Notes under the pieces: model-generated
Database searches by the model: none
The model's input: the letters and a program-made list of their open reading frames with translations, nothing else
Told to the model about the DNA's origin: nothing
Shown: positions 16,004 to 34,110 of the stretch, piece after piece
Layout: each line of letters starts with the position of its first letter
Position numbering within the stretch: the stretch's first letter is position 1
Made by a program: the position numbers and the translations under genes
Assembly: GCF_001269985.1 (NCBI RefSeq)
Contig: NZ_BBZB01000001.1
Span: 3,410,001 to 3,474,000 of the forward strand
Direction of reading: 5' to 3'
From: Pseudoalteromonas sp. '520P1 No. 423'
Lineage (GTDB): Bacteria; Pseudomonadota; Gammaproteobacteria; Enterobacterales; Alteromonadaceae
DNA length: 64,000 nt

Positions 16004-16009
16004 AAAAAG

Positions 16010-16062
16010 TGGTACCAGTAGCCGGACTCCCACCAACTCACCTGAAGGCAAAGGATTTTGAA
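16010..16062 (-). repeat. Displaced tRNA-Leu(CAA) 3' half, copy A (att-like)
   Basis: 53 nt equal in extent to the 3' half of the intact tRNA-Leu at 34.0 kb, from CCA back to the anticodon-loop sequence TTCAAAATCC, where the match stops. The T-arm has decayed (the GTTCGA loop is lost), so this is the most degraded copy. The 5' half is absent and it cannot be a functional tRNA. It probably marks the outer end of the oldest island inserted at this tRNA. Confidence 0.8.
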
Positions 16063-16521
16063 GTATTCACAAATACCTAGATAATTCAGTATCTTAATAG
16101 ACCATTATGGACAAGCACACTAATAGACTTAGCTAGTGTTGGACATGTTTAGATTCACTTATACGCCCATCTACCCAGATTATTACCATGTAGTTCAATA
16201 CATTAACCGTTTATCATTCAGTTATTGCCCCGGTCTTTTGGTCTTGAGTTGTAAGTTAAGTCCTGTAGAGAACTTTGATTACATGCCAGCCAAATTTAGC
16301 TTTTAACTAGGTGAGGCTCTAATATTGCCCACTTAAATGCTACTTTATCAAACTGTAACGTCTGAATGAAAAGGGCTTTCATAACAGAGTCTATGCTCGC
16401 CGTATTAAATGTTGTTATTAATGCTTGATCGCACTAATCAAAAAGCTATTACTGTACGTATATGATAAAGAGAAACAGAAATAGTTACTTTTTTCTATAA
16501 ATACATCAGCAACTGATACCT
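16063..16521. other. 459-bp gap without a recognisable gene
   Basis: No ORF of convincing coding character on either strand. Several stop-riddled stretches could be gene remnants, but none resembles a family I know. The gap lies between tRNA-Leu fragment A and the photolyase pseudogenes. Confidence 0.4.
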
Positions 16522-17372
16522 ATGAAGGCGCTATATTGGTTTATCAATGATTTACGCATTGAGGATAACTCACTACTTGCCAAGCTAGCTAACGAAAGCA
16601 AATCATTGCATTGTTGCTTTATTAACTCTCAATGGTTTAACTCATCATCGCTATTAAATAGTGCAATGGGATTCAATCGATGGCAATTTTTAAAGCAATC
16701 ATTAAAAGCACTAGCAAAAGCTCCGCAGAACTTAAATGTTGAGTTAAAGGTATTGATGGTGAGCCTGAAAATATTTTACCTAAATTAGTTGATGAGCTAG
16801 CAATAGACACCTTAGGTTGTGCTCAGCAAGTAGGCTATCAAGAAAACCAAAGTTTAAAGGCGATACAAAATAAATTACCAGATGTAACTTTTGAAACAGC
16901 ATGGTTGAATACATTGTTTACCGAGGACTTAATTGTTAATAGCAACGCAGTTATCGGTAGTTTTTCGAAATTTAGAAAGGTTGTTGATAAAAACTTAATT
17001 AACATAGTTATAGAGCCTTCATCTCAAATTGGCAACGTAATGATAAATATCTTCAAACAACCAATACCATAGAAAGCACATCTTTAGACAATGCCATTAT
17101 TGTTGTTGACAAATTATTCCCTGATCAAAATCACCATACAAGGCAATAAACGAAATAACCATTAAAGGTGGTTACGATGTCGCTCCACTGCATTTAGCAG
17201 ATTATTTTTATCTGGCGCAGCAGACCATTACAAACAAACACGTAATGATTTTCATGGTTTACAGCGATCATCACTCTTTAGCCCTTGGTTAGCAATTGGT
17301 TGTCTTAGTGTTAAAAATGTTTGGCAAGCAATTAGTGAATATGAGCGACGCCATCAAGCCAATGAATCAACT
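16522..17372 (+). pseudogene. Cryptochrome-DASH photolyase, broken and truncated
   Basis: The start MKALYWFINDLRIEDNSLL and SAMGFNRWQFLKQSLKAL match the photolyase domain of cryptochrome DASH. The frame breaks near 16745 and continues as GEPENILPKLVDEL..., breaks again near 17070, and reappears as FLSGAADHYKQTRNDFHG, SSLFSPWLAIGCLSV and NVWQAISEYERRHQANEST. The FAD-binding C-terminal part after that is missing: the text runs straight into a different photolyase family. Cry-DASH repairs UV lesions in single-stranded DNA. This copy cannot be functional. Confidence 0.8.
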
Positions 17373-17389
17373 AAACAGTACAAGTTTCA

Positions 17390-18139
17390 TGTCAAATAGA
17401 GACCGACAAATAGTCGCTAGCTGTTTAGTTAACGAAGTTGAGCTCGATTGGCGCTATAGGCGAAAGCGTTTTATTGTGCTTGTTGACGATGACAATAAAC
17501 CTGAGGGTGGCAAGTGGAATTATGATCAGCAAAATAGCAATAAACTTAAAAAAAGGATATCGCCTCAATCCCCGCACCATTAGTATTTAGTCATGATGTT
17601 AGTGACATAAATGGTCGCTTAGCCCGTCATAAGTTCAAAACAATAGGACAAGGTGACTCAACATTATTATGGCCAATCAATCGCTGCAATATAGTTACGC
17701 ACATCATATTCAACGCTTAATGATCACCGGAAACTTTTGTTTATTAACAGGCATAAAGCCTGCGCAAGTTGACCAATGGTATTTGGGGATTTATGTTGAT
17801 GCTATTGAATGGGTTTAACTACCTAATACTCGCGGTATGAGTCAGTTTACTGATGGTGGGCTTATTGCTTCAAAAGCCTATGCCGCCAGTGGTAATTACG
17901 TAAATAAAATGAGTGATTACTGCTAAAGCTGTCATTACAATGTTAAAGAAAAGACCAGTGAGAATGCCTGGCCTTCAAATAGCTTGTATTGGCATTTTAT
18001 GGATAAACACAGCGAATTGTTTGAATCAAACCCAAGACAAGCCATGGTTTATCGAAATTGGCGCAAACAAACAGCAGAACAATGACAAGCAACATTAGCC
18101 AAAGCTCAGGATTATTTGCGCAACTTAGATACTCTTTAA
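17390..18139 (+). pseudogene. FeS-type photolyase-related protein (DPRP / PhrB-like), broken
   Basis: RRKRFIVLVDDDNKPEGG with KWNYDQQNSNKL, then in other frames APLVFSHDVSDINGRL, MITGNFCLLTGIKP and SLYWHFMDKHSELFESN, are typical of the deoxyribodipyrimidine photolyase-related family that carries a 4Fe-4S cluster. Damage is extensive: several frameshifts, an in-frame TAA between the two Cys of the C-x-x-C cluster motif (SDYC-stop-SCHYNV), and the next cluster Cys replaced by Trp (ENAWPSN). The first ~130 residues are missing because a deletion fused it to the cryptochrome remnant. It ends 7 bp from the convergent DUF2805 stop codon. Confidence 0.78.
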
Positions 18140-18145
18140 AGTTTT

Positions 18146-18433
18146 TTAACGTGCCTTACTTTTGTTTGCTGATTTTACTTTATATTGGCTCATACAATGA
18201 GAGCGAGATACGGCTTCGCTTCGTATGCTTAAGTATTTTGTTTTTCGACCCGATACTCTACTGCGCCAATTTTTAAAGGTTTTACTTTTTAATTCTTGGC
18301 GCATAAGTCGAATCACTTGTGGCTCAGTTAAGCCATATAAAATTTCGATGGCTTCAAATGGCGTGCGATCTTCCCAGGCCATTTCAATAACTCTCGATTT
18401 ATCAGGATATTCAAGCATTTCACTATGCCTCAT
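18146..18433 (-). CDS. TIGR03643 / DUF2805 family protein
   Basis: 95 aa. The segments RVIEMAWEDRTPFEAIEILY and GLTEPQVIRLMRQELK, SFKNWR-like FKNWRSRVSGRKTKYL identify this small basic family, which is often found beside photolyase/cryptochrome genes in marine bacteria. It looks like a helix-turn-helix type fold, so nucleic-acid binding is possible, but the function is unknown. It overlaps the 3' end of the ABC1 kinase gene by 11 bp and is intact although the adjacent photolyase genes are dead. Confidence 0.82.
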   Translation of the reverse strand: MRHSEMLEYPDKSRVIEMAWEDRTPFEAIEILYGLTEPQVIRLMRQELKSKTFKNWRSRVSGRKTKYLSIRSEAVSRSHCMSQYKVKSANKSKAR

Positions 18434-19745
18434 GATGAATAAATTTAGAAAATAACTGATGCGTATTCACTTTAGCCTCAAGCTTGGCAGCAAGTAAATA
18501 CAATCCAGCTAGTTTACGGTGGATAAATACCGCATCAATCGGTGGTGTGTGCCATTGCTCTTGCTGAGTATTAATTAACAAACCTTTCTCTTTAATTCTC
18601 AACGCTAAACCGCTCTTTGCAAAGTCATAAGTCTTGTCATGTACCAAAGGCTCACAGGCCAAGGCAAAAATGTCTAACACCTGCGATAAGTAGGTTGATT
18701 CAATATTATCAGCAAAAAAACCAATGCTTTTAGCTGCATCAACCATAGCCATTTTTTCATTGTTGACACTGGCTTTGATTAAGGCTAAATAACCACGACT
18801 TATCGCCTGTGGAATTTTCAGAGTGGCACCAAAATCAAGTAGCACTATACGCTCGGTATCAACTTGATAGAGATAATTAGCAAAGTTGGGATCTGTTTGC
18901 ATTAACTGGTAGGTAAAAAGCTCATCGAAAAACAAACCAATGAGTGACTCAACCGCCTTGTCTCTTAATTGTTGCGGTAATAGCGTTATTTCGTCAATAG
19001 GTACACCTTCAATAAATGTCATGGCTAATATCGACTGAGTACTAAAGTCTTCAATAACCCTAGGTAAAACAAATTGATCATCACTGAGCACCTCAGCGTA
19101 GTTTTTGACAAAATTTGCTTCATTGACGTAATCCGCTTCGGCAAGTAATTGCAGCTTCGCTTCTGCTAATAATTCATCAATCTTAATATGCGAGGGCAGC
19201 AGCCCTGACAATTTTAATAATGCCGCAACGTTATCAACATCACTACTAATCGCATCAGCAATACCTTGATATTGCACCTTTACTGCAAGCTTTTTACCAT
19301 TATCAAGGTAAGCCGTATGAACTTGTCCAATAGATGCTGAAGCAAAAGGTTTAAGCTCAAAGTGTGCAAAGTTATCGAGCCAACTAAATCCCCATTCCTT
19401 TTCTAACACTGCTAACAATTGCTTGAGTGGCATAGGTTGTGCGTTTGACCGGAGGTTATCTAATAGCTGACTTAACTCTGCAGGTAACAAATCGCCGGCA
19501 TCCATAGATAACAATTGCCCTACTTTCATTGCCGCACCACGAAGCTGTGACAGTTTGTCAGCTAAATGCTTAATATTGCTAGGTTGTACGAGCAATTTTT
19601 TAACGGATGTCGGTTGGCCTTTCGACCATTGCTTTGCTCCGTCTAAAACCATATTACTCGCGACTTTAGTGACCAAGGAGCCTAAGGTCGCTAATCTGGA
19701 TAATCGAGAGGTAGGTATTTTCTTTTCTTTTTTCAATCTATACAC
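18423..19745 (-). CDS. ABC1/UbiB-family atypical kinase
   Basis: 440 aa. The family's KxGQ motif is present (AAMKVGQLLSMDAGD), together with the Ala-rich loop and lysine segment (KLAVKVQYQGIADAI), and the DFG-type motif (RIVLLDFGATLKI). ABC1/ADCK/UbiB proteins are ATP-binding atypical kinases linked to ubiquinone and membrane lipid metabolism. This paralogue lies in the accessory region beside photolyase remnants, so it is not the main ubiB. Its start abuts the stop of the RND permease gene, implying co-transcription with the pump. Confidence 0.85.
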   Translation of the reverse strand: MYRLKKEKKIPTSRLSRLATLGSLVTKVASNMVLDGAKQWSKGQPTSVKKLLVQPSNIKHLADKLSQLRGAAMKVGQLLSMDAGDLLPAELSQLLDNLRSNAQPMPLKQLLAVLEKEWGFSWLDNFAHFELKPFASASIGQVHTAYLDNGKKLAVKVQYQGIADAISSDVDNVAALLKLSGLLPSHIKIDELLAEAKLQLLAEADYVNEANFVKNYAEVLSDDQFVLPRVIEDFSTQSILAMTFIEGVPIDEITLLPQQLRDKAVESLIGLFFDELFTYQLMQTDPNFANYLYQVDTERIVLLDFGATLKIPQAISRGYLALIKASVNNEKMAMVDAAKSIGFFADNIESTYLSQVLDIFALACEPLVHDKTYDFAKSGLALRIKEKGLLINTQQEQWHTPPIDAVFIHRKLAGLYLLAAKLEAKVNTHQLFSKFIHHEA

Positions 19746-22700
19746 CTAACGTATAACAAGCGACTTTACATCTTTGCCATATTGTTGAAAGTAACGTTTT
19801 AAATCGTCTAAAATAAGGTAGTTCATCGGCACAATAAACAAGGTGATCAACGTGGCGAATATAATGCCAAACCCTAAACTCACCGCCATTGGAATTAAAA
19901 ATTGCGCCTGGGTAGATTCTTCAAAGAGTAATGGTATCAAACCTGCAAATGTAGTGAGAGACGTCAACAATACCGCTCTAAAGCGCCTTCCCCCTGCTTC
20001 ATAAACCGCTTTTTTCACTGACGTACCTGCCAAGCGACGTTGATTGACATAGTCAACTAACACGAGTGAGTCATTAACGACTACACCAGATAACGCTAAT
20101 ATGCCCATGAAACTTAGCAAGGTTAAATCCAAGCCCATGATCCAATGCCCTATCACCGCGCCAACCAATCCAAAAGGAATGACTGACATCACAATCAAGG
20201 GTTGTGAATACGACTTAAATGGAATCGCCAATAAAACATAAATTAATATCGATAACGCTATCGCACCAACGATCAGCCCCTCAGATGACTCTTTTTGATC
20301 TCTCGCCTCGCCTGCTAATTCAAAACTAACACCCGGATAGGCATTCATTTTGATCGCTAACCAAGACTGCAGCTCTTTTTGAACTAAAGACATGTCGCCT
20401 GTTTTCTTATCAAAATCGGCCGTTACGGATAAGGTTCTTTGTCTATCTATCCGCAAAATTGTATTTGGACTCACACCAGGAAGAACATCAGCGACTTGCC
20501 ATAAGGCGACTTCTTGGTTAGGGCCAATACGTATCATCATTTGTTCTAACGTTTCAATAGACTGTCGCGCTTCGATAGGGTATCTCACCATAACCCGAAC
20601 TTCTTCACGACCTCGCTGAATACGCTGCACTTCAAAACCAAATACGGCTTGTCTCACTTGACTTGAAACGCTATTAAGATCTAGTCCTAACAGTCTTGCT
20701 TCAGGTTTTAAAACAAGCTGCAACTCTTCTTTACCATCTGACAAGGAATCCTCTATATCAAACACACCGGAATAAGTAGCCAACTTCACTTTTAATTGCT
20801 CGGAGATCTCATTAAGTGCACTGACATCGTTGCTTTTCAGTTCAATATCAATAGGAGAACCACCCCAACCGCCAATCTCTGCACGATAGTTTAGTTGCTC
20901 TGCCCCTGGGATTGGTCCAACACGCTTACGCCATTCATTGACAATATCTTGTGTCGTTACCACTAAAGTGCGTTTTTCAGGCGGGACTGTTTCAACACGA
21001 ACTCTGCCCGTTGTTGAATTTCTCCCTCCACTGATCGCATAAATATTACGAATAACAGACTCTCCGGTCTCAGGGTCGCGAAATTCTTCGCGCAAATCTT
21101 GGGCATGCTGCGTAATCGCTCTAACATAACTGTCAGTAGAGTTGAATGCTGTCCCTGAAGGCATGATCAAATTTGCCGTAGCTACCTCACTTTGTATACG
21201 AGGGAAAAATACAAATTTAGTGTGCCCACTAAACAAAGTGCCTAGCACCATGATAAAAGCGGCAACCATTAACGCGAGCGTTGCGTAGCGCCAGCGCATT
21301 GCTTGTGCTAGAGCTGGTTGATAGAGTTTTTCAATCAACACTTCCAGTGAACGAGCAATTTTTTGTTGAAGTTGTGATAGTCGAGAAGGATTATTTGAAA
21401 GTGGGCGAACATGTTTTAGATGTGCCGGTAAGATAAATTTCGACTCTATAAGTGAAAATAATAATACTGGCACTACTACAAACGTGATGGCTGCATACCA
21501 ACTAGCTCGTCCTGTTTGAAAGGCAAGTGGTAAAAAAGCTGCAGCAGTGGTTAAAATACCAAAAGTTACCGGCACCGCAACTTCTCGCGTTCCGTTAATG
21601 GCAGCCTTTAGCGGATCTTCGCCTCGTTGTAAGTGAGAATACACGTTTTCGCCGGTAACAATCGCATCATCAACGACAATACCGAGCACTAATATAAAGG
21701 CAAATAGACTCATCAGGTTGATACTGACGCCGAATAAAGGCATGAATAGAAATGCCCCTAAAAAACACATAGGGATACCCAAGCATACCCAGAAGGCAAC
21801 TGCGGGTCTTAAAAATAACGCAAGCATAATTATCACCAATAATGCGCCCTGCCATGCACTCTTAGTTAACGTATCAAGCCTTGCTTTTACTGGTTCGCTT
21901 CGATCTCGCCAGTAGTCCATTGATAGACCTTGCGGCAATTGGCTTTGCTTTGCTTCAATGTAATCTCTTACCGCGGAGGTTATATCGATAACACTTTCAT
22001 TTCCGGTTCTAAATACTTCAATCTCTATTGCGGGTACACCATTAAAACGCGTATTTAGCGATATTTCAGCAAACGCATCCTTGATATTGGCTATATCTCC
22101 TAAGCGCAACATGGTGCCGTCTTGAGTGGTAATAATAGGAATATTAGCAAAGTCATTAGCTTGGTAAGCTTGCCCTCTACTGCGAATAAAGATCTCACCA
22201 CCGGACGTTCGTAGGTTACCTGCTGAAGAATCACGGGAGTTTTGGCGCAAAATATTAGAAACCTGGGCCAAAGTTAGGTCATATTTACGAAGTGCCCATT
22301 CTGGTATTTCAATAGACATCTCAAACGGAAGAACATCCTCAATTGCTACTTGGGATATATCATCTAATTGAACAAGCTCATCCCTCACGTCTTCAGCCAT
22401 ACGCCTTAATGTTACGGCATCATAATTACCATAAATCATTACTCCGATTGCATCTCTGCGCCATTGAGGCACTTGAATTAATAAGTTCTCCGCTTCTACA
22501 GGAAAATTACTAATCGCATCAACGCGAATTTTTACTTCTTCAAGCAGCTCCCTTACGTCATAGCCTTCTTCAACAGATAAAGTAACGGATGCTCTGCCCT
22601 CACTGCTTTGAGAATTAATTTGACGGATACCTTCAATATCTTGAACCGCTTCTTCTATCTTAATCGTGATGCCTTCTTCAACTTCTTGTGGCGATGCACT

Positions 22701-22853
22701 GGGTAAAGTAACGCTGACGCTAACACTGCGTACTTCAATTTCAGGAAATAGATCAACAGGCACTTTGTTGAGCATCACATAGGCACCAGCTAACATTATT
22801 AATACTAATAATATATTCGCAGCAACATCGTTTTTAGCAAACCAAGCAATCAT
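19746..22853 (-). CDS. RND efflux permease
   Basis: 1035 aa, the normal RND length. It starts MIAWFAKNDVAANILLVL and has the twelve-helix, two-periplasmic-domain layout. The proton-relay motif is visible in FILVLGIVVDDAIVTGENVY, and the C-terminal LSGVVVNDSLVLVDYVNQRR is the matching second-half motif. Sequence features (VPVDLFPEIEVRSVSVSV) fit the MdtBC/AcrB-like subgroup found without a local TolC. The upstream gene encodes its adaptor, with an 11-bp gap. Confidence 0.92.
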   Translation of the reverse strand: MIAWFAKNDVAANILLVLIMLAGAYVMLNKVPVDLFPEIEVRSVSVSVTLPSASPQEVEEGITIKIEEAVQDIEGIRQINSQSSEGRASVTLSVEEGYDVRELLEEVKIRVDAISNFPVEAENLLIQVPQWRRDAIGVMIYGNYDAVTLRRMAEDVRDELVQLDDISQVAIEDVLPFEMSIEIPEWALRKYDLTLAQVSNILRQNSRDSSAGNLRTSGGEIFIRSRGQAYQANDFANIPIITTQDGTMLRLGDIANIKDAFAEISLNTRFNGVPAIEIEVFRTGNESVIDITSAVRDYIEAKQSQLPQGLSMDYWRDRSEPVKARLDTLTKSAWQGALLVIIMLALFLRPAVAFWVCLGIPMCFLGAFLFMPLFGVSINLMSLFAFILVLGIVVDDAIVTGENVYSHLQRGEDPLKAAINGTREVAVPVTFGILTTAAAFLPLAFQTGRASWYAAITFVVVPVLLFSLIESKFILPAHLKHVRPLSNNPSRLSQLQQKIARSLEVLIEKLYQPALAQAMRWRYATLALMVAAFIMVLGTLFSGHTKFVFFPRIQSEVATANLIMPSGTAFNSTDSYVRAITQHAQDLREEFRDPETGESVIRNIYAISGGRNSTTGRVRVETVPPEKRTLVVTTQDIVNEWRKRVGPIPGAEQLNYRAEIGGWGGSPIDIELKSNDVSALNEISEQLKVKLATYSGVFDIEDSLSDGKEELQLVLKPEARLLGLDLNSVSSQVRQAVFGFEVQRIQRGREEVRVMVRYPIEARQSIETLEQMMIRIGPNQEVALWQVADVLPGVSPNTILRIDRQRTLSVTADFDKKTGDMSLVQKELQSWLAIKMNAYPGVSFELAGEARDQKESSEGLIVGAIALSILIYVLLAIPFKSYSQPLIVMSVIPFGLVGAVIGHWIMGLDLTLLSFMGILALSGVVVNDSLVLVDYVNQRRLAGTSVKKAVYEAGGRRFRAVLLTSLTTFAGLIPLLFEESTQAQFLIPMAVSLGFGIIFATLITLFIVPMNYLILDDLKRYFQQYGKDVKSLVIR

Positions 22854-22864
22854 TATGCAAACTC

Positions 22865-24253
22865 CTATTGCGCGCTAACTGACATCGAAGCATTAGGGGA
22901 AAAAGCATCCTCTACTTCAGTATTTTCGCTTACAGCCGAAGACTCTGCTATCAATTGCTTTTTAGTGGCTTCTTTTACTGGCGAATTATCGCCGTCTAAC
23001 GGCTTTACTTTTGTACCATCAGGTAAATTAGCCGTAGGAGTAAGAATTAGGATATCTGATTTGTTTAGTAAGCCAGCAGAAAGATTATTGTTGGACGATT
23101 GATAGCTCACCGTTAAAAGTGTATTTGCCTGCTGTGGAGCAACCACTACTGAGTCGTTATCAGTCCAGATAGGCGTGATTTTACGCTTTTTAAGTAAGCC
23201 ATTATCAACGACACTCACCATAAAATCTTGAGAAACAGCACGACGAGGAATGACAAAAACATCTTCATAGCGTTTGCCTTCTATTTTGGCTCTCATAAAT
23301 TGGCCGATTCTCACTGCTGGTCTCTGCTTTGAGGGTATAAAAGGCTTTTCTATTTGTGCGACAACGTAAAGCATTCTGGTGCGAGGATCGAAAGCCCCTT
23401 CAGTACGAACAATTTTTCCAATCCATTGATGCGTTTGATTACCCATATCACTTTCAAATAATACTGCAGGTAGCTCGTTAGCAAGAGTTTCACCTTCAGG
23501 TAGGAGTAAGTGTTCTAGATCGTCTACTTTGATAGGTAGGCGCACTTCAACAACATCATTACTGTAAATTGACGCAATCGTTTGACTTGGGGTTACAAAC
23601 TCCCCAATGTCTATTAATTGCTCAAGCACTTTTCCATCAAATGGCGCAACAACTTCTGTTCTTTGTAAATTCAACCTAGCCCTTTTAACTTTTGACTTTG
23701 CTGCTTGTAGTGATGCTTTTGCTGCGGCAAGTTGTGGCTCTCTTAATGCTAGTTTTCGTGCCGCTTTTGATTCGGGAATTGTGTTCCACTCCTTCGCAGC
23801 AAGCTCTGCTTGGGCTAATTCTTGAATATACTTCACTTCAATATCCGCAGCCTGCGAAATTGCAATATCAAGCTCAACTTCAAAGTCTCTGCTATCAATT
23901 TTAGCTAAAATATCACCTTTCTTAAAAACGCCACCAGCTCGAATATTTGGCGAAACAGCTACCACCCGGCCACTGATATCGGCAACCAAACGAGTTTCGG
24001 TAAGTGCTTGAGCTGTTCCGTATGAGTTTACCCAGATATCGAATGACTTGGTCTCTAAGGGTCTCACTTCTACAGCAACACTCGGAGCAGGCCTATCTCC
24101 CCACCTGTTGGCTTTGGGTTTGGCACTAAATAGACCCACAACAACTAGGAAACAAATAGCCAAGATAGCCAAAGTTACAATACTGTGGGCAATCCAAGGT
24201 ACTTTTCTTTCATATATTTCCAATTTACTGTTTTGATTAAATTGACTTGTCAT
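22865..24253 (-). CDS. RND periplasmic adaptor (membrane fusion protein)
   Basis: About 462 aa from the ATG with GGAGAA upstream; an ATG 12 nt earlier is an alternative. An N-terminal membrane anchor (SIVTLAILAICFLVVVGLFS) is followed by the barrel-sandwich half VSPNIRAGGVFKKGDILAK, an Ala/Lys-rich hairpin (about 150-200), RTEVVAPFDGKVLEQL, and VFVIPRRAVSQDFM in the membrane-proximal domain. The C-terminal tail (about 50 residues, Ser/Ala/Glu-rich) is longer than usual. It forms the adaptor ring for the downstream RND permease. Confidence 0.9.
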   Translation of the reverse strand: MTSQFNQNSKLEIYERKVPWIAHSIVTLAILAICFLVVVGLFSAKPKANRWGDRPAPSVAVEVRPLETKSFDIWVNSYGTAQALTETRLVADISGRVVAVSPNIRAGGVFKKGDILAKIDSRDFEVELDIAISQAADIEVKYIQELAQAELAAKEWNTIPESKAARKLALREPQLAAAKASLQAAKSKVKRARLNLQRTEVVAPFDGKVLEQLIDIGEFVTPSQTIASIYSNDVVEVRLPIKVDDLEHLLLPEGETLANELPAVLFESDMGNQTHQWIGKIVRTEGAFDPRTRMLYVVAQIEKPFIPSKQRPAVRIGQFMRAKIEGKRYEDVFVIPRRAVSQDFMVSVVDNGLLKKRKITPIWTDNDSVVVAPQQANTLLTVSYQSSNNNLSAGLLNKSDILILTPTANLPDGTKVKPLDGDNSPVKEATKKQLIAESSAVSENTEVEDAFSPNASMSVSAQ

Positions 24254-24757: not shown

Positions 24758-24785
24758 ATTATAGTTTGAAGGCCAATACAAACAT

Positions 24786-25170: not shown

Positions 25171-26084
25171 TTATTGAATACTAGCATTTATTGCATTCGC
25201 AGTTTGTCTTGCTTTCACTAGTAGCTGAGCATAAAGTTCTAAGCTTTCTAGATATTCATTATCCTTTACACTGCTTTGTGCAAGTAATCGTTTACCAGCG
25301 GTAATTCCTTGCTCTAATGACAATTCACCATTGTCGCTAAACAAAACACTATACCAACACGCAGTATCCCATTTCAGATAGGCTTCCTTTATCGGTGCGG
25401 GTAACATGCAGGCCTGATAAAACAATTCTCCTGCCTTATTTTTATCACCAAATGTCCATAAGAGTTGCGCTGCTCGTTCAACAATTTCTACGTTGTTGCT
25501 ATATTGCTGTGCAATACCCGTTGCATAATGGATCGCTTCACTTTCCTTTTGTGTGTTTTGTAATAAGTCCATCTGTACAATATGAGCGAACGGAGAACTT
25601 CCTTGCAATAATTTTGCTACTATTGGCGCTTGTTTATTACTATCACCGCCCATGATGCTGGGCTGTCCATAAGCTTTAGCTGCTTCCATTTGGTATCTAG
25701 CATTCTGGGGTGCGAGTTTGGCCGCTTTTGTCATCGCCTCAACATAATTGCTATATATCGACATTTTGGAAAACATCGAACTATTTTTTGCGACAATTTG
25801 CCATAAATTTCCCGCCCAATATTGTACTTTTGCATTGTTCGGGTGTGCTTTTGTGAAAGACGCTAAAGCATCGTCAGCGTTATCTTCATTACGTTGAAGG
25901 GGCTATCGAGGACATCAAGCGCAGTTATTACCGATTGATAGTCACGCTGATAATATAGCGCTTCTAAAGTTTGTTGATTAGTTTTTTGATGCTCTAGGGT
26001 TACTGCTAATGTGGCTTTTGGCACATAAGCTGTGCCTAAGATTGCGTTGAACAAGGCGAGTTTTGCCCCATGGATGAGTTTCAT
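25171..26084 (-). pseudogene. TPR-like secreted protein, frameshifted
   Basis: The start MKLIHGAKLALFNAILGTAYV (CAGGAG site before ATGATG) runs for about 70 codons to YQRDYQSVITALDVLDSP. The frame then shifts near 25895 and continues as RNEDNADDALASFTKAHPN and NAKVQYWAGNLWQIVAK, on to QAPIVAKLLQGSSPFA and a stop at 25171. The pattern of helical pairs (YVEAMTKAAKLAPQNARYQM) is tetratricopeptide-like, and the start looks like a signal peptide. It follows the M1-peptidase gene in the same direction and was probably the third gene of that operon. A single indel seems to have broken it. Confidence 0.7.
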
Positions 26085-26170
26085 CATGTGCTCCTGTAAC
26101 TTCAATGAATAAGTTGTGAAATGGTTGAACAGCGAGAGCTAGAATACTCCCGCTGGTGTTTATAAAGGGA

Positions 26171-29100
26171 CTAGTTGATAGTGAAAACGTTGTCTGACAA
26201 GTTTCTGTCTATTCTGCGCAATTTAGGATCTACCTGTACATGTGTAGGTTGTCTTTCTGTATATAAAGTCACTTCACTACGATCTTTATAGAATTTTACT
26301 TTTTCAATTAACATAGCGTTGCTATCGTCATACATTGGGTAGCCGTCATAAAGGGCGACATCGATATATTCATTGATAGGCGCGGCTTGCTCTTCGTTAG
26401 TTTGTAAGTCCAATTCGAACTTCAATACACTGACATCAATAGTGGTCATAAATACACTATTAGCTTCGTTCGACACTCGCTGTGATTTTGCACCATGTAT
26501 CTCAAAGCTGTGGAATATCACTCGCTTAAATAAATCATCTATTTGCTCTACTTGCTCATGTGTAGCTTGCTGACTAAAGGCAGCTAATACATCCAATGTT
26601 GTCGCTTTGTATGGGTAGCCTTTTTCAGTTAAAAGTTGCTTTAATGCTTGGTTAATCTTGTCTTCACCTAAGATATCCAATAGCGCGTACATACTGTGCT
26701 GACCTTTACCGTAAAACAAGTGAGCCTCGTGTCCCATGCTATATAACGGTTGTTCGATATCAGACATGTATGGACGAACTTTCAAATAAAAATCTAACGA
26801 TTGATTCACTAAATCAAAAGCGGCTGTTTCTCCATATATATGATTCAACATAACAAGCTCGGTATATTTAGCTAATGTTTCGGTCACCATTGGAGCGCCC
26901 GCAATGTAATGTGGCTCCAGATAGTCGCCCCAGAACTGGTGAGCAAATTCATGTGAAATTCCACGTAATTGAGGATTAAATTCGGCTAAATCTACTTGTC
27001 TGCTATCTAAGTTAAACATTCTATTCTCTACCCCTACGTACATACCTGGTTGTGAACTTCCAAATGACTGAGTTGCTGAAAAATATGGAATTTCTACAAT
27101 GGCATAATGTTTACCTTTATAAGGCATATAGTGTTTAGTAAAGTAATTCATTGATTGTGTTAACGCCGTTAAAATCATCTCGTTGTCTTGATTATGCTCA
27201 GGTGCATGATAGACCGTTAATTCAACACCATTATGTTTTTTTGTTTCAGTGGTAAATTCCGCTGAAACGACAGCTAGCTGTGCTTGAATTGGCTGGGCAG
27301 ACTGGTAGTGAAAGAATTGACGTCCTTCATTAATCCACGTCTTTTTAGGCGTTCCAACAGTTACCACAGTTTGCGGCATTGTGGTGGAAATGACTGCGTC
27401 AAACATTAATTTATCGTGTGCTTCAACGTGCATGTGCTTTTCTGGCATAGTACGCGTTAATTTTGGTAAATCATGCTCATTACGATTGTCCACATCTGTT
27501 AATACGTAAGCTTCGTTAAAGCCAAATTGTGGTATCACATCTTCAACTTCTATATAACTACCGCCATCGGTTACATAGTGTTCACCGTCTAATTCGCCAA
27601 AAGCGTTATGTGTTGCGGTTAGCGAAAACTCAACAGAGGTTGTTTTATTCGGCGCTAAAGGTGTTGTCAAAGTAAACAACATGGTTTGATGTACTTGATC
27701 ATGTTTGATTAATTCTGCACCCGCTAATTCTACCTGATAGTTCACATGGCTTTGACGCAATACCGACACCAATACATCTGTGATCGGCTGATCAGATTGG
27801 TTTTCAATGATATAACTGCCTCGTATTTGATAACTACGATTCTCAGGAAAGATATCCATCGCTAACTTAACGTCAACAATTGTAGGTGACGATTTACCTT
27901 GGTATGACTTATATTGTTTTTCGTAGTCTGCCATTAGCGCAATCTTTTGTTCCTCTGTCATAAAGGTATTAAACATATTTTTTTGGTAGAAAATATAGCT
28001 AGCGCTAGTGACACAAACCAACATTAAGCTTGCCAACAGCACACGGGCTTTTTTCGTTAATTTTTCTGCTGTAACTGTACTGCCGCGTTGCCAGAATTTA
28101 ACGGTGATTACACCTAAAGTACCTGTTAAAGAAAGCCAGTAAATGTTGTACCAATGAGCAGCTTGTGCATGATAAATCGTGTCAGCCATATCAGAGAACA
28201 TGAAATAAGGTTGATAGGCAAATACTGTTAATGGATGGTCAAGTAACATGCCTTTCGCTACGCCATTTAGTACAAATACACCAACACCTAATAACAACCC
28301 AATGGCTTTTACTTTGGCAAAACGCTGTAAAAATAGCGTTAATAAAGCTGCCAACAACATAGGAACGCCACTGTAATAGAACAGCAATAAATACTGTTGA
28401 GGTTGAATATCTAAATAACCTTGCGACAACTGGAATAGAATCGCCGAGGTAATGCTCACCAGTATTAAGGTAAAACCGATGGTAAGTACTGCCGCTAATT
28501 TTGCAAAATAAAAAGTAAAATTTTGCGTAGGTGTGCAATCAATTAATGGTGCGATTTTGATTAAACGTTCATTCCAATATAGTTCTACCGTAAAGAAAAT
28601 CACCACTAACATACCAATTTTTGCTAATGGTTCTTGTAACCAGCCTAGAATTAACGCTGTTTGTGGCAAGAATGCTTGACCTCCTGCGACTGGACCATCA
28701 AAAACACTGTTAATTAAGTTTCCTAATGTAAAGGCGATAGTGGTGATCAACAGCACCATGAATACTTTGCCACGTGTCGCGGTCATGTACTCTATGTTGA
28801 ATTTTGACCATGCTACTGGCCAATTAATTTGGTTAAAATCAATCACAGGTTTTGGGCTGGTATATGGCGTGAAACGTTTGTGTTCAGGTTCTGCTGTAGC
28901 AGATAGATCTTGAACGTTCTTTTTCGTTTTTATTTTATGTTCAGCCCTAAAGCTGAATACTCTATAAGTAAAGACAAATAAACTAAGGCTTATTGCTAGC
29001 CATAAAATACGGTTGAATAACAATGCCCCTGTTAGCGAAGGCATAAAAGTATTGCGTTGCTCAGCACTCCAATAAGCAGATTGTTCTGCAAAAGCGATTA

Positions 29101-29740
29101 GACCGTATGGTTCAATTAATGAAGCGAAGCCATATCCCTCCGATAATACGGATGATGTAGCCATTAATGGTGAATTGCCAAATATCGACCCTACGATATA
29201 TATCACGTATAACATGATCCCAGAAACAAATACCGTGATCATACTTTTACTTAACATTGCCGCAGCAAATACTATGGAGGTACATAAAAATACGGAAGGT
29301 ACGATAAACAGCAGATAATTACTGATGTAGTAATTTAATTGAAATGGACCTACCAATTCGGCATCTAAAAATAGCGGGGTAATCATCATGCCAATAAGTG
29401 CCATGAATAATATCGCACACGTAGCAAGGGCAATGCTGATGTATCTACTGGCTAAATACTTTAATTTGTCAATTGGCGTGGTAAAAATTAGTGACTCCAT
29501 CTTGTATTGGCTATCTCGCAAAACGGTAGCCGACGCTAAGACACAAGTAACAAAAATTATATTAGGCGCAATAAACAATAATGTTTGGCTTATAGCGTGA
29601 GCAGAGTTTGCAAAGACTAAACCAGAACCGCGCTGCGTAGTGATTAAAACGGCCATCCATATCATAGCGATTGAAGCTGCCCAAAAGCCACCTTGCTTGA
29701 TCTGTTGTTTTAATTCAAAGGGTAATAACTTAAGCAACAT
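26171..29740 (-). CDS. ABC transporter permease fused to M1-family metallopeptidase
   Basis: 1189 aa from the ATG with AAGGGG upstream, overlapping the ATPase stop by 11 bp. The first half holds two sets of about six membrane helices of ABC-2 permease type. The second half is an extracytoplasmic gluzincin domain with HEFAH (His930, Glu931, His934) and a following Glu954 in VTETLAKY, the zinc ligands of M1 aminopeptidases. GSSQPGMYVGVENRMF upstream resembles the family's exopeptidase loop. This fused architecture is known but poorly characterised. The ATPase is encoded just upstream and a LytS/LytTR pair faces the operon. Confidence 0.9.
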   Translation of the reverse strand: MLLKLLPFELKQQIKQGGFWAASIAMIWMAVLITTQRGSGLVFANSAHAISQTLLFIAPNIIFVTCVLASATVLRDSQYKMESLIFTTPIDKLKYLASRYISIALATCAILFMALIGMMITPLFLDAELVGPFQLNYYISNYLLFIVPSVFLCTSIVFAAAMLSKSMITVFVSGIMLYVIYIVGSIFGNSPLMATSSVLSEGYGFASLIEPYGLIAFAEQSAYWSAEQRNTFMPSLTGALLFNRILWLAISLSLFVFTYRVFSFRAEHKIKTKKNVQDLSATAEPEHKRFTPYTSPKPVIDFNQINWPVAWSKFNIEYMTATRGKVFMVLLITTIAFTLGNLINSVFDGPVAGGQAFLPQTALILGWLQEPLAKIGMLVVIFFTVELYWNERLIKIAPLIDCTPTQNFTFYFAKLAAVLTIGFTLILVSITSAILFQLSQGYLDIQPQQYLLLFYYSGVPMLLAALLTLFLQRFAKVKAIGLLLGVGVFVLNGVAKGMLLDHPLTVFAYQPYFMFSDMADTIYHAQAAHWYNIYWLSLTGTLGVITVKFWQRGSTVTAEKLTKKARVLLASLMLVCVTSASYIFYQKNMFNTFMTEEQKIALMADYEKQYKSYQGKSSPTIVDVKLAMDIFPENRSYQIRGSYIIENQSDQPITDVLVSVLRQSHVNYQVELAGAELIKHDQVHQTMLFTLTTPLAPNKTTSVEFSLTATHNAFGELDGEHYVTDGGSYIEVEDVIPQFGFNEAYVLTDVDNRNEHDLPKLTRTMPEKHMHVEAHDKLMFDAVISTTMPQTVVTVGTPKKTWINEGRQFFHYQSAQPIQAQLAVVSAEFTTETKKHNGVELTVYHAPEHNQDNEMILTALTQSMNYFTKHYMPYKGKHYAIVEIPYFSATQSFGSSQPGMYVGVENRMFNLDSRQVDLAEFNPQLRGISHEFAHQFWGDYLEPHYIAGAPMVTETLAKYTELVMLNHIYGETAAFDLVNQSLDFYLKVRPYMSDIEQPLYSMGHEAHLFYGKGQHSMYALLDILGEDKINQALKQLLTEKGYPYKATTLDVLAAFSQQATHEQVEQIDDLFKRVIFHSFEIHGAKSQRVSNEANSVFMTTIDVSVLKFELDLQTNEEQAAPINEYIDVALYDGYPMYDDSNAMLIEKVKFYKDRSEVTLYTERQPTHVQVDPKLRRIDRNLSDNVFTIN

Positions 29741-30638
29741 CTTGATCCCCTTGATTTGTATGACCAATACCTTGAGCCTTGTTTAACGTAGAAAAGTAAA
29801 CATCTTCTAAATCTGGAGTAATGGGCTTGAATCCAATTTCTGGTTGGAATTCACTTTCAATGATTAGTTGAGTTTTGCCAGTAATTAATCGTTCAGATAA
29901 AACGTTGAATCTAGTGCGGTAGTCTGCAGCTTCTGCTCTATTGACCATTTTTGACCAGACTCGACCGTCTAACGTACGGATTAACGAAGCAGGTTTTCCA
30001 TGCAATTGAATCTGACCATTAATAAGAATTGCCATGTTTGGACAAAGTTGACTGACATCTTCAACGATATGTGTTGATAAAATAACAACTATGTTTTCGC
30101 TGATTTCACACAATAAATTATGAAAACGGTTGCGTTCTTGCGGATCCAGCCCTGCGGTTGGTTCATCAACAATAATAAGTTTTGGGTCACCTAGTAAGGC
30201 TTGCGCAATACCAAAACGCTGTTTCATACCGCCTGAATACGTCGCAACGTCATTGTGACGCTTGTCGTATAAATTGGTTAAATGCAGTAGATTTTCTATT
30301 TGTGTTTGACGCTGCTCTTTATCAACAATACCTTTTAATAACGCTAAATGATTTAACAATTCATAGCAGCTGGCTTTCGGGTATACACCAAATTCTTGCG
30401 GCAAATAGCCTAAACATTCACGTAATACATTAGGGTTTTTAACAATGTCTTTATTATCAAAACTAATTTGTCCGTGAGAAGGTTGTTGCAACGTCGCGAT
30501 TGTGCGCATTAAAGATGACTTTCCAGCTCCATTTGGCCCAAGTAAGCCAAATAAACCAGGTTCTATGTCAAGTGATACTGATTTAAGCGCTTGAACTCCA
30601 TTGTCATAAGTTTTTGATAAATTTCTAATAGTTAACAT
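29730..30638 (-). CDS. ABC transporter ATP-binding protein
   Basis: 302 aa from the ATG beginning MLTIRNLSKTYDNGVQALKS; a GTG 45 nt upstream would add residues not typical of the family. Walker A LLGPNGAGKSSL, signature YSGGMKQRFGIAQAL, Walker B LIIVDEPTAGLDPQ and the His switch STHIVEDV are all present. This is the CcmA/multidrug-type ATPase that partners ABC-2 permeases. It should drive the permease/M1-peptidase fusion, whose start overlaps its stop codon. Confidence 0.92.
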   Translation of the reverse strand: MLTIRNLSKTYDNGVQALKSVSLDIEPGLFGLLGPNGAGKSSLMRTIATLQQPSHGQISFDNKDIVKNPNVLRECLGYLPQEFGVYPKASCYELLNHLALLKGIVDKEQRQTQIENLLHLTNLYDKRHNDVATYSGGMKQRFGIAQALLGDPKLIIVDEPTAGLDPQERNRFHNLLCEISENIVVILSTHIVEDVSQLCPNMAILINGQIQLHGKPASLIRTLDGRVWSKMVNRAEAADYRTRFNVLSERLITGKTQLIIESEFQPEIGFKPITPDLEDVYFSTLNKAQGIGHTNQGDQDVA

Positions 30639-30709
30639 ACGTCCGTCCGAAGTGTTTTCTGTTTTTCTGTATAGTACAATCACTAAAAATTAAATAAATA
30701 ATGAAATGA

Positions 30710-30740
30710 CGAACGACGATTAAACATTGTCGAACGACGA
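30710..30740. promoter_or_regulatory. Direct-repeat operator, probable LytTR site
   Basis: CGAACGACGA occurs twice with starts exactly 21 bp apart, that is two helical turns. LytTR-domain regulators typically bind pairs of ~9-bp direct repeats with a 12-13-bp spacer. The repeats lie between the divergent ABC operon and the lytS/lytTR pair. The sequence fits the published LytTR consensus only in part, so the assignment rests mainly on geometry and position. Confidence 0.6.
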
Positions 30741-30763
30741 ATTTCGCTAAAAAGAAGGCTATT

Positions 30764-31543
30764 TTGAACGTTTTGTTAAAGAGTATTGCGCTAGTATTAG
30801 GTTATGGCGTCAGCCTATATCTTATCTATCTTGCCACAAACCCTGAGGTACTGATTGTATTTTTAACCATTAGCTTGATGCTACCGCTTATTTATTTGAT
30901 ACAAGATAGGGCAAAACAAAAACAGTACATTGACCATTTACATCAAGAAACACTCAAAGCTGAACTGAGTTTACTAAAAAGTCAAATTAATCCACACTTT
31001 TTCTTTAATACTTTAAATAACTTATATGGGCTAGCCGTTGAGAAGTCTGATTTAACTGAAGAGGTAATATACCGGCTGTCTCAAATGATGCGTTTTACAA
31101 TTTATGGTGGCCGTAAACATACAGTATCGGTGGAGGACGAAATTGCATATTTGGAAAATTTCATTGAACTAAATCAACTGCGCCATCAACACCGATTGGA
31201 TATTCGTTTTGAACGACATATCACCAATGATCAACAACGTATTCCGCCACTATTATTCATTAATTTGCTAGAAAACGCCTTCAAACACGGTGTTGATACC
31301 TTAACCGATGGTCAGTATATTCATTTTTGTTTAACGACTAAGCCGGAGATGATCGAATTTACGATCAAAAATAATTTCGACAAAACGGTATTAGAGAAAA
31401 ATAAAAAGCAACGAGCAAGCGGTGGACTGGGATTAGACAATTTAAAGCGCAGGCTTGTTTTGCTTTTTCCAGATAAACACCAAATAAAAACAAATGTTAC
31501 CGATAGCCTTTATAAAACAACAGTTTCGATAGACTTAACATAA
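30764..31543 (+). CDS. LytS-type sensor histidine kinase
   Basis: 259 aa from a TTG start with GAAGG upstream. Two membrane helices (about residues 5-24 and 28-46) are followed by the HisKA_7TM/5TM-type kinase core: phospho-acceptor His78 in SQINPHFFFNTLNNLYGLA and the ATP-binding N and G boxes (LLENAFKHGVD, ASGGLGLDNLKRRL). There is no extracellular sensor domain, as in the small kinases that monitor partner transporters. It is followed 26 bp later by its response regulator. Confidence 0.9.
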   Translation: MNVLLKSIALVLGYGVSLYLIYLATNPEVLIVFLTISLMLPLIYLIQDRAKQKQYIDHLHQETLKAELSLLKSQINPHFFFNTLNNLYGLAVEKSDLTEEVIYRLSQMMRFTIYGGRKHTVSVEDEIAYLENFIELNQLRHQHRLDIRFERHITNDQQRIPPLLFINLLENAFKHGVDTLTDGQYIHFCLTTKPEMIEFTIKNNFDKTVLEKNKKQRASGGLGLDNLKRRLVLLFPDKHQIKTNVTDSLYKTTVSIDLT

Positions 31544-31569
31544 ACGGATTATATAGACGGATTAACTTA

Positions 31570-32277
31570 ATGAATTATTTGATCATCGACGATGAGCCAA
31601 CCGCGCATAAATTGATCACTCGATTTGCACAAGCTCATCCGACATTAAACTTAGTGGGTTCGTGTTTTAATGCGATGCAAGCTGAACAATTGATGCAATC
31701 GAAACAAGTTGACGTGATTTTTCTAGATATTAATATGCCGAAAATGACGGGGTTTGAATTTTTAACCGCACTCAAACAGCCCCCACAAATCGTTGTTATT
31801 TCAGCACACCAAGAGTATGCATTAGAAAGCTATGAATACGAAATAAGTGACTACTTACTTAAACCGTTTAATGCTGAACGGTTTGGTAAAACATTTCAAA
31901 AGATAACCGATAAACAAGCGTTGATCGAAAGTCATATGCAAAGTGGGAACAGCAGCAATGCCCTGCAAGAAAGTATCTTTATAAAGGATGATAAAAAACA
32001 TCATCAAGTGGCATTAAATGAATTACTTTATGTTAAAGCAAATGGCAACTATTCCTCAGTTTATTTAAAAGGCTCTCAGTTACTAAGCCAAATGAAAATT
32101 TCTGATTTTGAGCGATTATTGCCAGAGGAACATTTTTCTCGAGTACATCGTTCATACATGGTTGCCCATCATGCATTGACATTAATCAAGGCCAGTGAAG
32201 TACATATTAATGATTTTGTTGTACCGGTTGGGCGAATATACAAAGACAAAGTGTCACAAATAGTTAATAAGAAGTAA
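31570..32277 (+). CDS. LytTR-family response regulator
   Basis: 235 aa. The receiver domain has the acidic pocket (IIDDEP, residues 5-10) and the phospho-acceptor Asp53 in FLDINMPKMTG. The C-terminal half (about 130-235) is a LytTR DNA-binding domain (FIKDDKKHHQVALNELLYVK, HFSRVHRSYMVA). It most likely binds the 21-bp-period repeats upstream of its own operon and of the divergent ABC/M1 operon. Confidence 0.92.
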   Translation: MNYLIIDDEPTAHKLITRFAQAHPTLNLVGSCFNAMQAEQLMQSKQVDVIFLDINMPKMTGFEFLTALKQPPQIVVISAHQEYALESYEYEISDYLLKPFNAERFGKTFQKITDKQALIESHMQSGNSSNALQESIFIKDDKKHHQVALNELLYVKANGNYSSVYLKGSQLLSQMKISDFERLLPEEHFSRVHRSYMVAHHALTLIKASEVHINDFVVPVGRIYKDKVSQIVNKK

Positions 32278-32610
32278 TTGCAATGTACAGTCACGTTCAA
32301 ATTCAGCAGTTAACACTTCCTTTGATATATTATATCGAGCTAATAAACACATCAGAACTTATTAAATGCCAATTTAAATCAATTTGTTACACCATCAAAA
32401 GGTAAGGCTACTATAGCCACTTCTCCGACCACGCTTTACCACTCCTCCAAACTTTACATATCTTTAGTGGCATAGTGACTTTGAAAAGTAGTAAATTATA
32501 AATGTCGTTTATGGTCTACATAGCGCCTACATTGGAATTATGTAAAATTTAGCTATTGATTTAAGTAAATTTCAGGCATAAAAAAACCTTGCAATAGCAA
32601 GGTCTTAAAA
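32278..32610. other. 333-bp gap ending in a terminator-like hairpin
   Basis: No gene seen. The right end (about 32580-32604) holds AACCTTGC/GCAAGGT, a hairpin placed like the terminator of the intact tRNA-Leu. The sequence just before it (AAATTTCAGGCATAAAAAA) is shared with the flank of fragment A at 15964-15983. Confidence 0.5.
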
Positions 32611-32663
32611 TGGTACCGGAGGACGGACTTGAACCGTCACGCCCGAAGGCAAAGGATTTTGAA
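32611..32663 (-). repeat. Displaced tRNA-Leu(CAA) 3' half, copy C (att-like)
   Basis: Again exactly 53 nt ending at TTCAAAATCC. Unlike the other copies its T-arm is intact but different (GACGG/CCGTC), and its acceptor half ends CTCCGGTACCA instead of CTACTGGTACCA. That would not pair fully with the resident 5' half. It therefore looks like a foreign tRNA-Leu 3' half brought in by an integrating element rather than a mutated resident copy. Confidence 0.78.
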
Positions 32664-32800
32664 TTTAGTGTATCTGTAATAACACTTATATATCAAACAC
32701 TTTAAATGAAAAAACAAAATTTGTCACGGCAAGATCATTATAAATTGAACCTTTTACTTTAGTCGCGATCAGATCTCAATATAATACATTGAGGTAATTA

Positions 32801-33768
32801 ACCTCAGATCTGCATAAGAAACTCTTTGTCTAGCCGAATTATTCTAATACTTGGCTGTTTTTTTTGAAAAGTATATGCAATTAATCCAGCGATTAAGTTA
32901 ACCAAAAAGCTTACGCAACTACGATGCCTAGAATGCTCTATCTGAGATATATTTTTTAATTGGTCAAAAACAGTTTCAACAATAAAACGTTTTCTAAGCA
33001 TTAATTTTATCCCATACTTTCATAACTTGGCTTTCATATTTTTTCTAATTCCAGTTACAAAATTGATATTTTTTTCAGCAAATTCGGCTTCCAACTTTTT
33101 AGATAAGTAACCCTTATCTCCATATAATTAACCCCATAAATTTTTTACCATATCTGGGATAGGGTTTCTGTCATCTACATTTCCTGCTGTAATTTTCACA
33201 GCTAAAATCCCACCTTCATCATTAATGATTAAATGAAGTTTAAATCCATAGAACCAACACATAGTTCCTTTTCCTCGCTCGGCACTACCGTTAAAAACTT
33301 TATGTCTAGGAATACGTAACTGGTGACAAACTTGTATTTTAGTTGCATCAACTAAAGCTATCCCTATCGGTTTTGCTTGTCGATGTGTCATATAGCTACA
33401 AAACGGTGTGAGGACAGATTGTAATAGTTTTAGCATTCTCGTATAGCTAACCAATTGTGGAAATTCTTTACACCAATATTGACATACATGATTGATATAA
33501 TAGGTTTTAAAATCACGGTAACCAGAGCGATGAAAAGCAATAACAATCGTCATTACCTCACTCGTTGTAAGTTTAGAAGGCTTAATTCTTTGTTTAAGTC
33601 CAATTTCGATAAGGTGATTTTGCCACTGAGGTTCAAATTTAAGACAGAAGTCATCAGTGAAAATAAAGTCTAAATTAATCATGCCCAAGTCCTTGTGATT
33701 GAAAGTTCTAGTCAAACGATCTGATCGCAATTTGGGCATTTAGTTCAATTCTTATGCGCAGCTCAGGT
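32801..33768 (-). mobile_element. IS982-family insertion sequence, inactive
   Basis: A 968-bp element bounded by imperfect ~20-bp terminal inverted repeats (ACCTCAGATCTGCATAAGAA on the left, ACCTGAGCTGCGCATAAGAA read inward from the right; about 15 of 20 match). Its one transposase gene has two premature stops. I see no clear target duplication. Repeat homology with 24786 onward begins within a few bases of its right end. Confidence 0.85.
32804..33739 (-). pseudogene. IS982-family transposase with two in-frame stops
   Basis: 312 codons in one frame. The text GSAERGKGTMCWFYGFKLHL and VDATKIQVCHQLRI are IS982-type (DDE_Tnp_1-like) signatures. TAA follows MVKNLWG and TGA follows KNMKAKL, after which [20 protein letters not shown] completes the usual C-terminus. 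Reading frame is kept across both stops, so only point mutations killed it. The stop codon lies inside the left terminal repeat. Confidence 0.88.
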
Positions 33769-33769
33769 T

Positions 33770-34025
33770 AAGTAACTTTAAATAACTATATTACACCCCC
33801 AAAATAGCTCTCTTACATTACATTTTCTTCATTTTAATTTGCAAAGAATCGTTTTATAGATATTGGAGTCATACTAAAAAATATAAGTTGGGGTTTATTT
33901 TGGTTTACTGAAATGTGTTTTGATCTTTAAACTCAAACCTAAAATATAAGTTAAGCCTTTATTTTAGAAGAATAAAAAATTAAGCATAAAAAAACCCTAA
34001 CCAATTGGTTAGGGTTCTAAATAAG
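33770..34025 (-). repeat. tRNA-Leu 3'-flank repeat, copy 2
   Basis: Partner of 24786-25031; the two copies differ by scattered changes and a few small indels. It carries the perfect palindrome AACCCTAACC-AATT-GGTTAGGGTT at 33993-34016 with a T-run on the minus strand, the rho-independent terminator of the intact tRNA-Leu. Confidence 0.75.
33987..34016 (-). terminator. Terminator of tRNA-Leu
   Basis: A 10-bp stem AACCCTAACC/GGTTAGGGTT with AATT loop, followed on the minus strand by a run of T. It sits 10 bp beyond the CCA end of the tRNA. Confidence 0.85.
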
Positions 34026-34110
34026 TGGTACCAGTAGGCGGACTCGAACCGCCACACCCGAAGGCGGGGGATTTTGAATCCCCTATGTCTACCAATTCCA
34101 TCATACTGGC
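34026..34110 (-). tRNA. tRNA-Leu (anticodon CAA)
   Basis: 85 nt with encoded CCA. The acceptor stem GCCAGTA pairs with TACTGGT (G-U at the first pair, as in other tRNA-Leu), the anticodon arm is GGGGA-TTCAAAA-TCCCC, a long variable arm follows, and the T-arm is GGCGGTTCGAGTCCGCC. This is the leuX-type gene known as an island insertion site in enterobacteria. It is the only complete copy among four related sequences in the window. Confidence 0.95.

Follow-up and report, generated by a model that had tools for sequence, protein, structure and literature searches.

In enterobacteria, the tRNA-Leu(CAA) gene is a repeated integration site, known from the leuX islands. More generally, among the 3919 genomic islands collected by Islander the site is centred on the anticodon in 2083, and in the sections of that report considered here tyrosine integrases are given as the only ones known to target tRNA genes, and every island, including every member of a tandem, is required to contain an integrase; the resulting list holds 125 tandems of two or more islands and 4 of three or more (PMC4383910), i.e., triples or larger stacks are rare in it. 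Here we describe an 18-kb array in Pseudoalteromonas sp. '520P1 No. 423', within a stretch of 64,000 bp (the window hereafter, G000:C1:3410001-3474000 of the home genome, which comprises 5.39 Mb in two contigs), that is very probably made of genomic islands stacked in one tRNA-Leu(CAA) gene by site-specific recombination at the sequence TTCAAAA of its anticodon loop, without integrases and resembling cis-mobilizable elements (CIMEs). Serial insertion at a tRNA site is a process already well known, and this locus is a clear triple case without an integrase of its own. Sequence comparisons show what points to this origin: displaced tRNA halves with a common breakpoint, edges shared with the strain NBT06-2, the absence of integrase domains, and relatives bearing integrases at the same site.

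Displaced tRNA halves and the edges shared with NBT06-2

A blastn search of the window with the complete tRNA-Leu(CAA) gene (Table 1) returned three partial copies, all on the minus strand and all 3' of the gene: copy A (nt 33-85, 81%, 53.6 bits), copy B (nt 33-85, 100%, 85 bits) and copy C (32611-32664, nt 32-85, 81%, 55.2 bits), nt 32 of the latter being one additional matching base. All of them have nt 33, where the loop TTCAAAA begins, as their common start, in agreement with the three 53-nt halves and the single breakpoint that a first-pass annotation of this DNA had described. When the window was shuffled 100 times with its dinucleotides preserved, the top match of the 53-nt half scored 23.7 bits and none reached 50 bits (0/100), and the controls, two Arg tRNAs and one Ser tRNA of the window, yielded full-length copies only and no fragments. 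The window also carries, at 57290-57889, four tRNA-Arg(ACG) genes, identical and arranged in tandem, and one tRNA-Ser(GCT). From start to start, the halves are spaced by 9022, 7579 and 1415 bp, as expected from the segments of about 9.0, 7.6 and 1.4 kb noted at first pass. In the home genome, nine matches of the 3' half were obtained; the seven listed correspond to the resident half, copy B and five places in the tRNA-Leu(UAA) cluster, and the two further ones are presumably copies A and C. A separate search of this genome gave one extra match of 19 nt (E 3.7). Judging from these matches, the displaced tRNA-Leu(CAA) halves of the home genome appear to be confined to this locus.

The halves differ in their state of preservation. 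Over the 53 nt, A and C each show 10 differences to the resident half and B shows none, so A can be called decayed and B identical, as had been claimed. Copy C had been considered foreign, and it does differ from the resident half; however, it shows only 3/53 differences to the allele of another Pseudoalteromonas genome, G107 (copy A shows 11), and an origin outside the genus is not required. A terminator-like hairpin had also been attributed to each copy: the first three entries of a hairpin scan of 15900-34200 follow the resident, A and B halves, and that of copy C is plain in the sequence, yet absent from the scan's list.

In the mechanism that we propose, each arriving element would bring its own tRNA 3' half and terminator and rebuild the gene on the tRNA side, and each arrival would push the earlier 3' half outward, the newest element lying closest to the tRNA. 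Half A would be the original chromosomal one, B would derive from element 1, C from element 2 and the present 3' half from element 3, which would have been reduced to its ends flanking an insertion sequence. The islands may have decayed in place or have been integrated by an enzyme acting in trans; what we infer is this step, the recombinase class, and how many elements arrived in which order. The interruption of tRNA-Leu(CAA) may be tolerable owing to the five tRNA-Leu(UAA) genes that the home genome carries in one cluster, given that a UAA anticodon can read UUG.

The comparison with relatives, suggested at first pass, places both edges of the array. The RDD gene beside the tRNA is 89% identical in Pseudoalteromonas sp. 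NBT06-2 (G070) and 76% in P. denitrificans DSM 6059 (G014), and the left flank aligns with that of NBT06-2 at 87.0% over 5294 bp. In NBT06-2, the sequence left of A directly adjoins a decayed tRNA-Leu 3' half, which aligns by position with copy A and has several apparent decay changes in common with it; within ~100-150 bp of it lies an undecayed half (nt 28-85) that is 100% identical to the resident one. On the tRNA side, nt 1-39 of the same gene are kept, adjoining the same right flank. By alignment, the two strains therefore have two edges in common, broken in the anticodon loop, and differing DNA between them, which supports the repeated insertion at the loop proposed at first pass. The decayed half of NBT06-2 looks probably orthologous to copy A, which suggests that the first displacement predates the split of both strains. 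With one gene per segment tested (the HlyD gene of segment 1 and the permease/peptidase gene of segment 2), the 18 kb did not turn up as core in any relative; neither this outcome nor fragments dispersed over the home genome, both named at first pass as contrary to its proposal, were encountered.

Content of the segments

The features of the locus are collected in Table 1. The insertion sequence that fills most of segment 3 presumably belongs to the IS982 family. No match was obtained with PADLOC for 10 segment proteins, and the GC content is 39.2, 37.5 and 31.3% for segments 1 to 3 and 31.8-36.0% for the flanks. For the HlyD gene of segment 1, no relative at 1e-80 appeared in the other 107 genus genomes and two at 38% did under a looser limit, and relatives at 51-58% are found in 10 genomes of other genera; in five of these loci that were fetched (L169-L173, 3.0-4.3 kb), TTCAAAATCC is absent. 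The permease/peptidase gene of segment 2 has genus relatives at 22-30% in 47 genomes, a paralogue at 27% in the home genome, and, among 394 genomes of the order, relatives at 50-51% in 3. In the phage and in the plasmid records, the B half plus terminator had no more than two weak partial matches each.

Table 1. Features of the tRNA-Leu(CAA) locus in the window and replacement-tRNA loci of relatives
Feature	Position	Strand	Basis or remark
Complete tRNA-Leu(CAA), integration target	34026-34110	minus	ARAGORN; sole complete copy in window
5' half of resident tRNA-Leu(CAA)	34079-34110	minus	Host; common to NBT06-2 along with right flank
3' half of resident tRNA-Leu(CAA)	34026-34078	minus	Putatively from the newest element
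TTCAAAA, 7-nt anticodon loop (nt 33-39), putative crossover region	34072-34078	minus	Common start of displaced halves; 5' remnant of G070 ends at nt 39
Displaced 3' half A, putatively oldest, decayed	16010-16062	minus	blastn; terminator-like hairpin 15981-16003
Displaced 3' half B, same as resident half	25032-25084	minus	blastn; terminator-like hairpin 25002-25021
Displaced 3' half C	32611-32663	minus	blastn; hairpin ~32586-32603
Segment/element 1, 8969 bp	16063-25031		Pfam: photolyase-related fragment, DUF2805, ABC1-type kinase, AcrB-type RND pump, HlyD-type adaptor; no recombinase found
Photolyase-related fragment, 95-aa open reading frame (ORF), segment 1	17296-17583		Pfam
RND efflux genes, cargo of element 1	19746-24265	minus	Pfam; HlyD-type 22865-24265, AcrB-type 19746-22853
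Segment/element 2, 7526 bp	25085-32610		Pfam: exporter and signalling genes; no recombinase found
201-aa ORF, segment 2	25171-25776		No significant Pfam match
ABC-2 permease joined to M1-type peptidase, segment 2	26171-29767		Pfam
ABC ATPase, segment 2	29730-30683		Pfam
Histidine kinase, segment 2	30764-31543		Pfam
LytTR response regulator, segment 2	31570-32277		Pfam
Segment/element 3, putative remnant, 1362 bp	32664-34025		Pfam, repeats; mostly insertion sequence
Insertion sequence, imperfect terminal inverted repeats (16/20)	32801-33768	minus	DDE transposase ORF 33128-33739 (Pfam DDE_Tnp_1_3); second short ORF 32804-33001
tRNA-proximal end of element 3	33771-34025	minus	Homologous to ~24786-25031 of element 1, 77-81%
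Left flank: MacB/FtsX, HlyD-type and ABC ATPase genes	10524-15816	minus	Pfam; common to NBT06-2 up to island edge
Right-flank RDD-family gene	34450-34959	plus	Conserved in NBT06-2
Replacement-tRNA locus, G070	L035:18804-19091		
Replacement-tRNA locus, G033	L058:12278-12870		
Replacement-tRNA locus, G006	L063:7345-7894		

The ends that elements 1 and 3 have in common span ~255 bp and match over their full length only in the home genome among 108; elsewhere in the genus, matches to them are the short terminator part or scraps of 25-65 bp. This relatedness, together with the identity of B and the resident half, would also fit a scenario with fewer arrivals, in which a composite island already held an internal half and B and/or C were internal att sites of one element. 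Tandems of a CIME and an integrative and conjugative element (ICE) have been observed to transfer by conjugation, and composite arrival is left as an option in the portions of that work considered here (PMC5704250). Nonetheless, the flanks of B and of the resident half are only 77-81% alike, elements 1 and 2 differ in their Pfam content and C is another allele, and we regard a composite arrival as possible but doubtful.

The same loop across the genus

The PF00589 profile gave 22 matches in the home genome and 0 in the range of the window, and phmmer with 15 home-genome integrases found no match in the window; this is the search for remnants that had been advised, and the statement that no integrase remains holds. 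Since none was recognised in the segments, the enzyme itself is deduced, and its assignment to the tyrosine recombinases relies on the kind of site, following the sections of the Islander report cited above (PMC4383910), and on the integrases of relatives. In G033, a 454-aa PF00589 ORF lies between the two edges, adjoining the displaced half. G028 has two adjacent PF00589 ORFs (587 and 439 aa) by the tRNA (L060:8958-12108), the second of which runs antisense through the entire tRNA gene, so the C-terminus of this integrase would change upon integration and excision. G078 carries a 410-aa PF00589 ORF by the tRNA, and no displaced half was found before its contig ends. An integrase thus occupies the site in at least three genomes. 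A tblastn search with the G028 integrase (L060:10789-12108) matched the resident, A, B and C halves, but an integrase relic was rejected: only the C-terminal 40-50 residues align, and this part of the ORF is encoded antisense to the tRNA gene of G028, so that the match is tRNA sequence. In NBT06-2, at least three consecutive PF00589 reading frames (L057/G070:C451:18488-20856) lie ~12.5 kb from the displaced half. In IMG/VR, the 3'-half pattern matched three stretches on two contigs, in both of which a half without complete tRNA adjoins an integrase-like ORF: in one the ORF is ~140 bp off (L193:5984-7436), and the other, of 44 kb, has a complete tRNA (L191:13223-13307) and elsewhere a half beside an integrase-like ORF (L192:225-1053).

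The survey of the stretches downstream of tRNA-Leu(CAA) covered 107 of 108 genomes (G051, whose contig ends 9 bases past the tRNA, was excluded); the loci hold 105 tRNA-Leu(CAA) genes, 92 with at least 10 kb downstream and 8 with less than 2 kb. Displaced 3' halves starting at nt 28-33 are present in at least 9 of the 107 genomes (G000, G028, G033, G059, G070, G077, G080, G081 and G082), a lower bound given that halves lying on other contigs (G070, G028) were detected only through whole-genome search. G000, the home genome, carries three of them, and the halves of G081 and G082 match over 29 nt only. The cargo is diverse: a PtuA-like ATPase with an HNH partner in G059 (L048:12679-15047; best PADLOC model PDC-M01A/B, and Pfam), an acyltransferase and two transposases in G080, and a two-component pair and other genes in G077. 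No PF00589 match falls between the tRNA and the displaced half in these three genomes. A lack of integrase can be stated firmly only for the genomes scanned in full with Pfam (G000, G059, G080 and G077), since the phmmer survey of relatives missed the integrase of G033 that Pfam found; the statement for G082 relies on phmmer, and that for G081 on phmmer plus Pfam of two ORFs. A 21-bp repeat, AACTGTGACGATTTTTTGCCA, is exact at one or both element ends in G028, G059, G081 and G082, and by the tRNA in G087 (L048:11845 and 18793, L042:8103, L049:8102, L060:11909, L059:4710 and L052:1366), one G028 copy (L059) having 2 mismatches. It occurs on elements with integrase (G028) and apparently also without.

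These islands without integrase would equally be expected if segments were exchanged by homologous recombination between common tRNA halves or flanks, with no recombinase at each step: none remains in the window, and the stretches of G059, G080 and G077 have no PF00589 match either. Such an exchange still requires an initial displacement by a break in the loop, and integrase-bearing elements do sit at the site in G033, G028 and G078, so that we find it improbable. Moreover, in 25 of 112 loci, extra copies of 19-25 nt of the tRNA-Leu(CAA) 3' end (start at nt 62-67) follow the gene or a displaced half on the downstream side, often ~118-130 bp apart and several of them in arrays (e.g., L065:521-1311, L089:497-1151 and L043:2656-2793), which we take to be reminiscent of the rtT repeats of E. 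coli tyrT. Arrays of this kind could suggest that the displaced halves of the window started as tandem duplicates of the 3' end of the tRNA with its terminator, spread later by unrelated insertions. However, the short copies begin at nt 62-67 and those of the window at nt 33, in the anticodon loop, and NBT06-2 shows the exchange of a whole island between fixed edges, which makes this origin very hard to sustain.

Several observations weigh against successive insertions, which nevertheless stay as our preferred reading. No genome was found that has just one or two of the three segments, and the ends of the NBT06-2 island lie on separate contigs linked by inference, as do those of G028. The proposed order displaces B before C, yet B has 0 changes and C has 3 to its nearest allele. 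Joined in script to the resident 5' half, the A, B and resident 3' halves are each called as tRNA, but the hybrid with C pairs at only 4 of 7 acceptor positions and is not recognised as a tRNA, so either copy C decayed after displacement or the tRNA gene was impaired between insertions. The GC content of segments 1 and 2 departs little from that of the flanks and is weak evidence. Finally, no integrase, relaxase or phage gene was recognised by Pfam in 11 of the 12 segment ORFs of at least 90 aa, and AACTGTGACGATTTTTTGCCA is absent from the window within 5 mismatches, its two matches at 6 being outside the array.

A different outcome is seen in G070, G033 and G006. Of the host gene, only nt 1-39 or 1-40, its 5' half, persist next to the RDD gene, and the element brings a complete replacement tRNA-Leu(CAA), located 150-200 bp farther inward. 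G070 and G033 have restriction-modification genes in the vicinity. The replacement tRNA of G033 and that of G006 carry a group I intron that splits the anticodon loop (Rfam RF00028, 92.2 and 93.9 bits; ARAGORN with introns). RF00028 is above the cut-off in 5 of 108 genus genomes, the other three in tRNAs that ARAGORN reads as CAT, CAT and CTG. The contig of G006 also has group II intron matches (L063:556-700 and 3564-3640) left of the replacement tRNA. Among the titles and abstracts listed by searches of open-licence literature, no description was found of an intron-bearing replacement tRNA on an integrating element. Could an element then close an integration site to its rivals? The intron would split, in the DNA, the loop sequence recognised by the integrase, and the mature tRNA would keep its loop. 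We tentatively propose, with low confidence, that the anticodon loop of tRNA-Leu(CAA) is a common docking site in Pseudoalteromonas where islands without integrase are loaded and swapped by integrases acting in trans, and that some competing elements shut it with intron-split replacement tRNAs. Since integrase-bearing and integrase-less elements occupy the same loop, several of them with the end repeat in common, the relatives make the mover of such islands testable.

Comparison with known systems

In comparison with the leuX islands, the stack lies in another genus and has no integrase. The tRNA-dependent lysogeny of mycobacteriophages, in the parts of its description considered here (PMC10865867), is resembled by the loci of G070, G033 and G006 and not by the window: that system leaves the host tRNA unrebuilt and supplies a replacement, whereas the window tRNA is complete at the junction. 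The supplied tRNA of G033 and G006 differs from the mycobacteriophage one in its group I intron.

CIMEs, as presented in the available portions of their description (PMC5704250), are flanked by att sites, lack integration and transfer genes and are stacked at one target gene. The same holds for the window, where each of the three segments is enclosed by a pair of halves (A/B, B/C and C/resident) in the manner of attL and attR, and where Pfam (the 11 of 12 ORFs above, and PF00589) recognised no integration or transfer genes, their earlier presence being assumed. The cargo is different, namely efflux or exporter genes together with signalling genes. Candidate autonomous relatives would be the integrase-bearing elements at the same loop in G033 and G028 and the one with an integrase by the tRNA in G078, but no end repeat is shared between them and the window segments.

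With the islands of Islander, the window shares the rebuilt tRNA gene and the displaced fragments in the same orientation that mark island ends, here on the 3' side, and the anticodon-centred site, here broken at nt 33, the anticodon loop being, with the T loop and the junction, one of the sublocations that Islander recognises; a relative with the same edges and another insert, NBT06-2, adds support that lies outside Islander's filter. The difference is the integrase in each island, which neither PF00589 nor phmmer finds in the window, so that, by the rules given in the sections considered, Islander would miss such a stack (PMC4383910). One tRNA gene can thus gather efflux, export and signalling genes stepwise, in a well-bounded triple stack of a form that integrase-based finders of this kind pass over.

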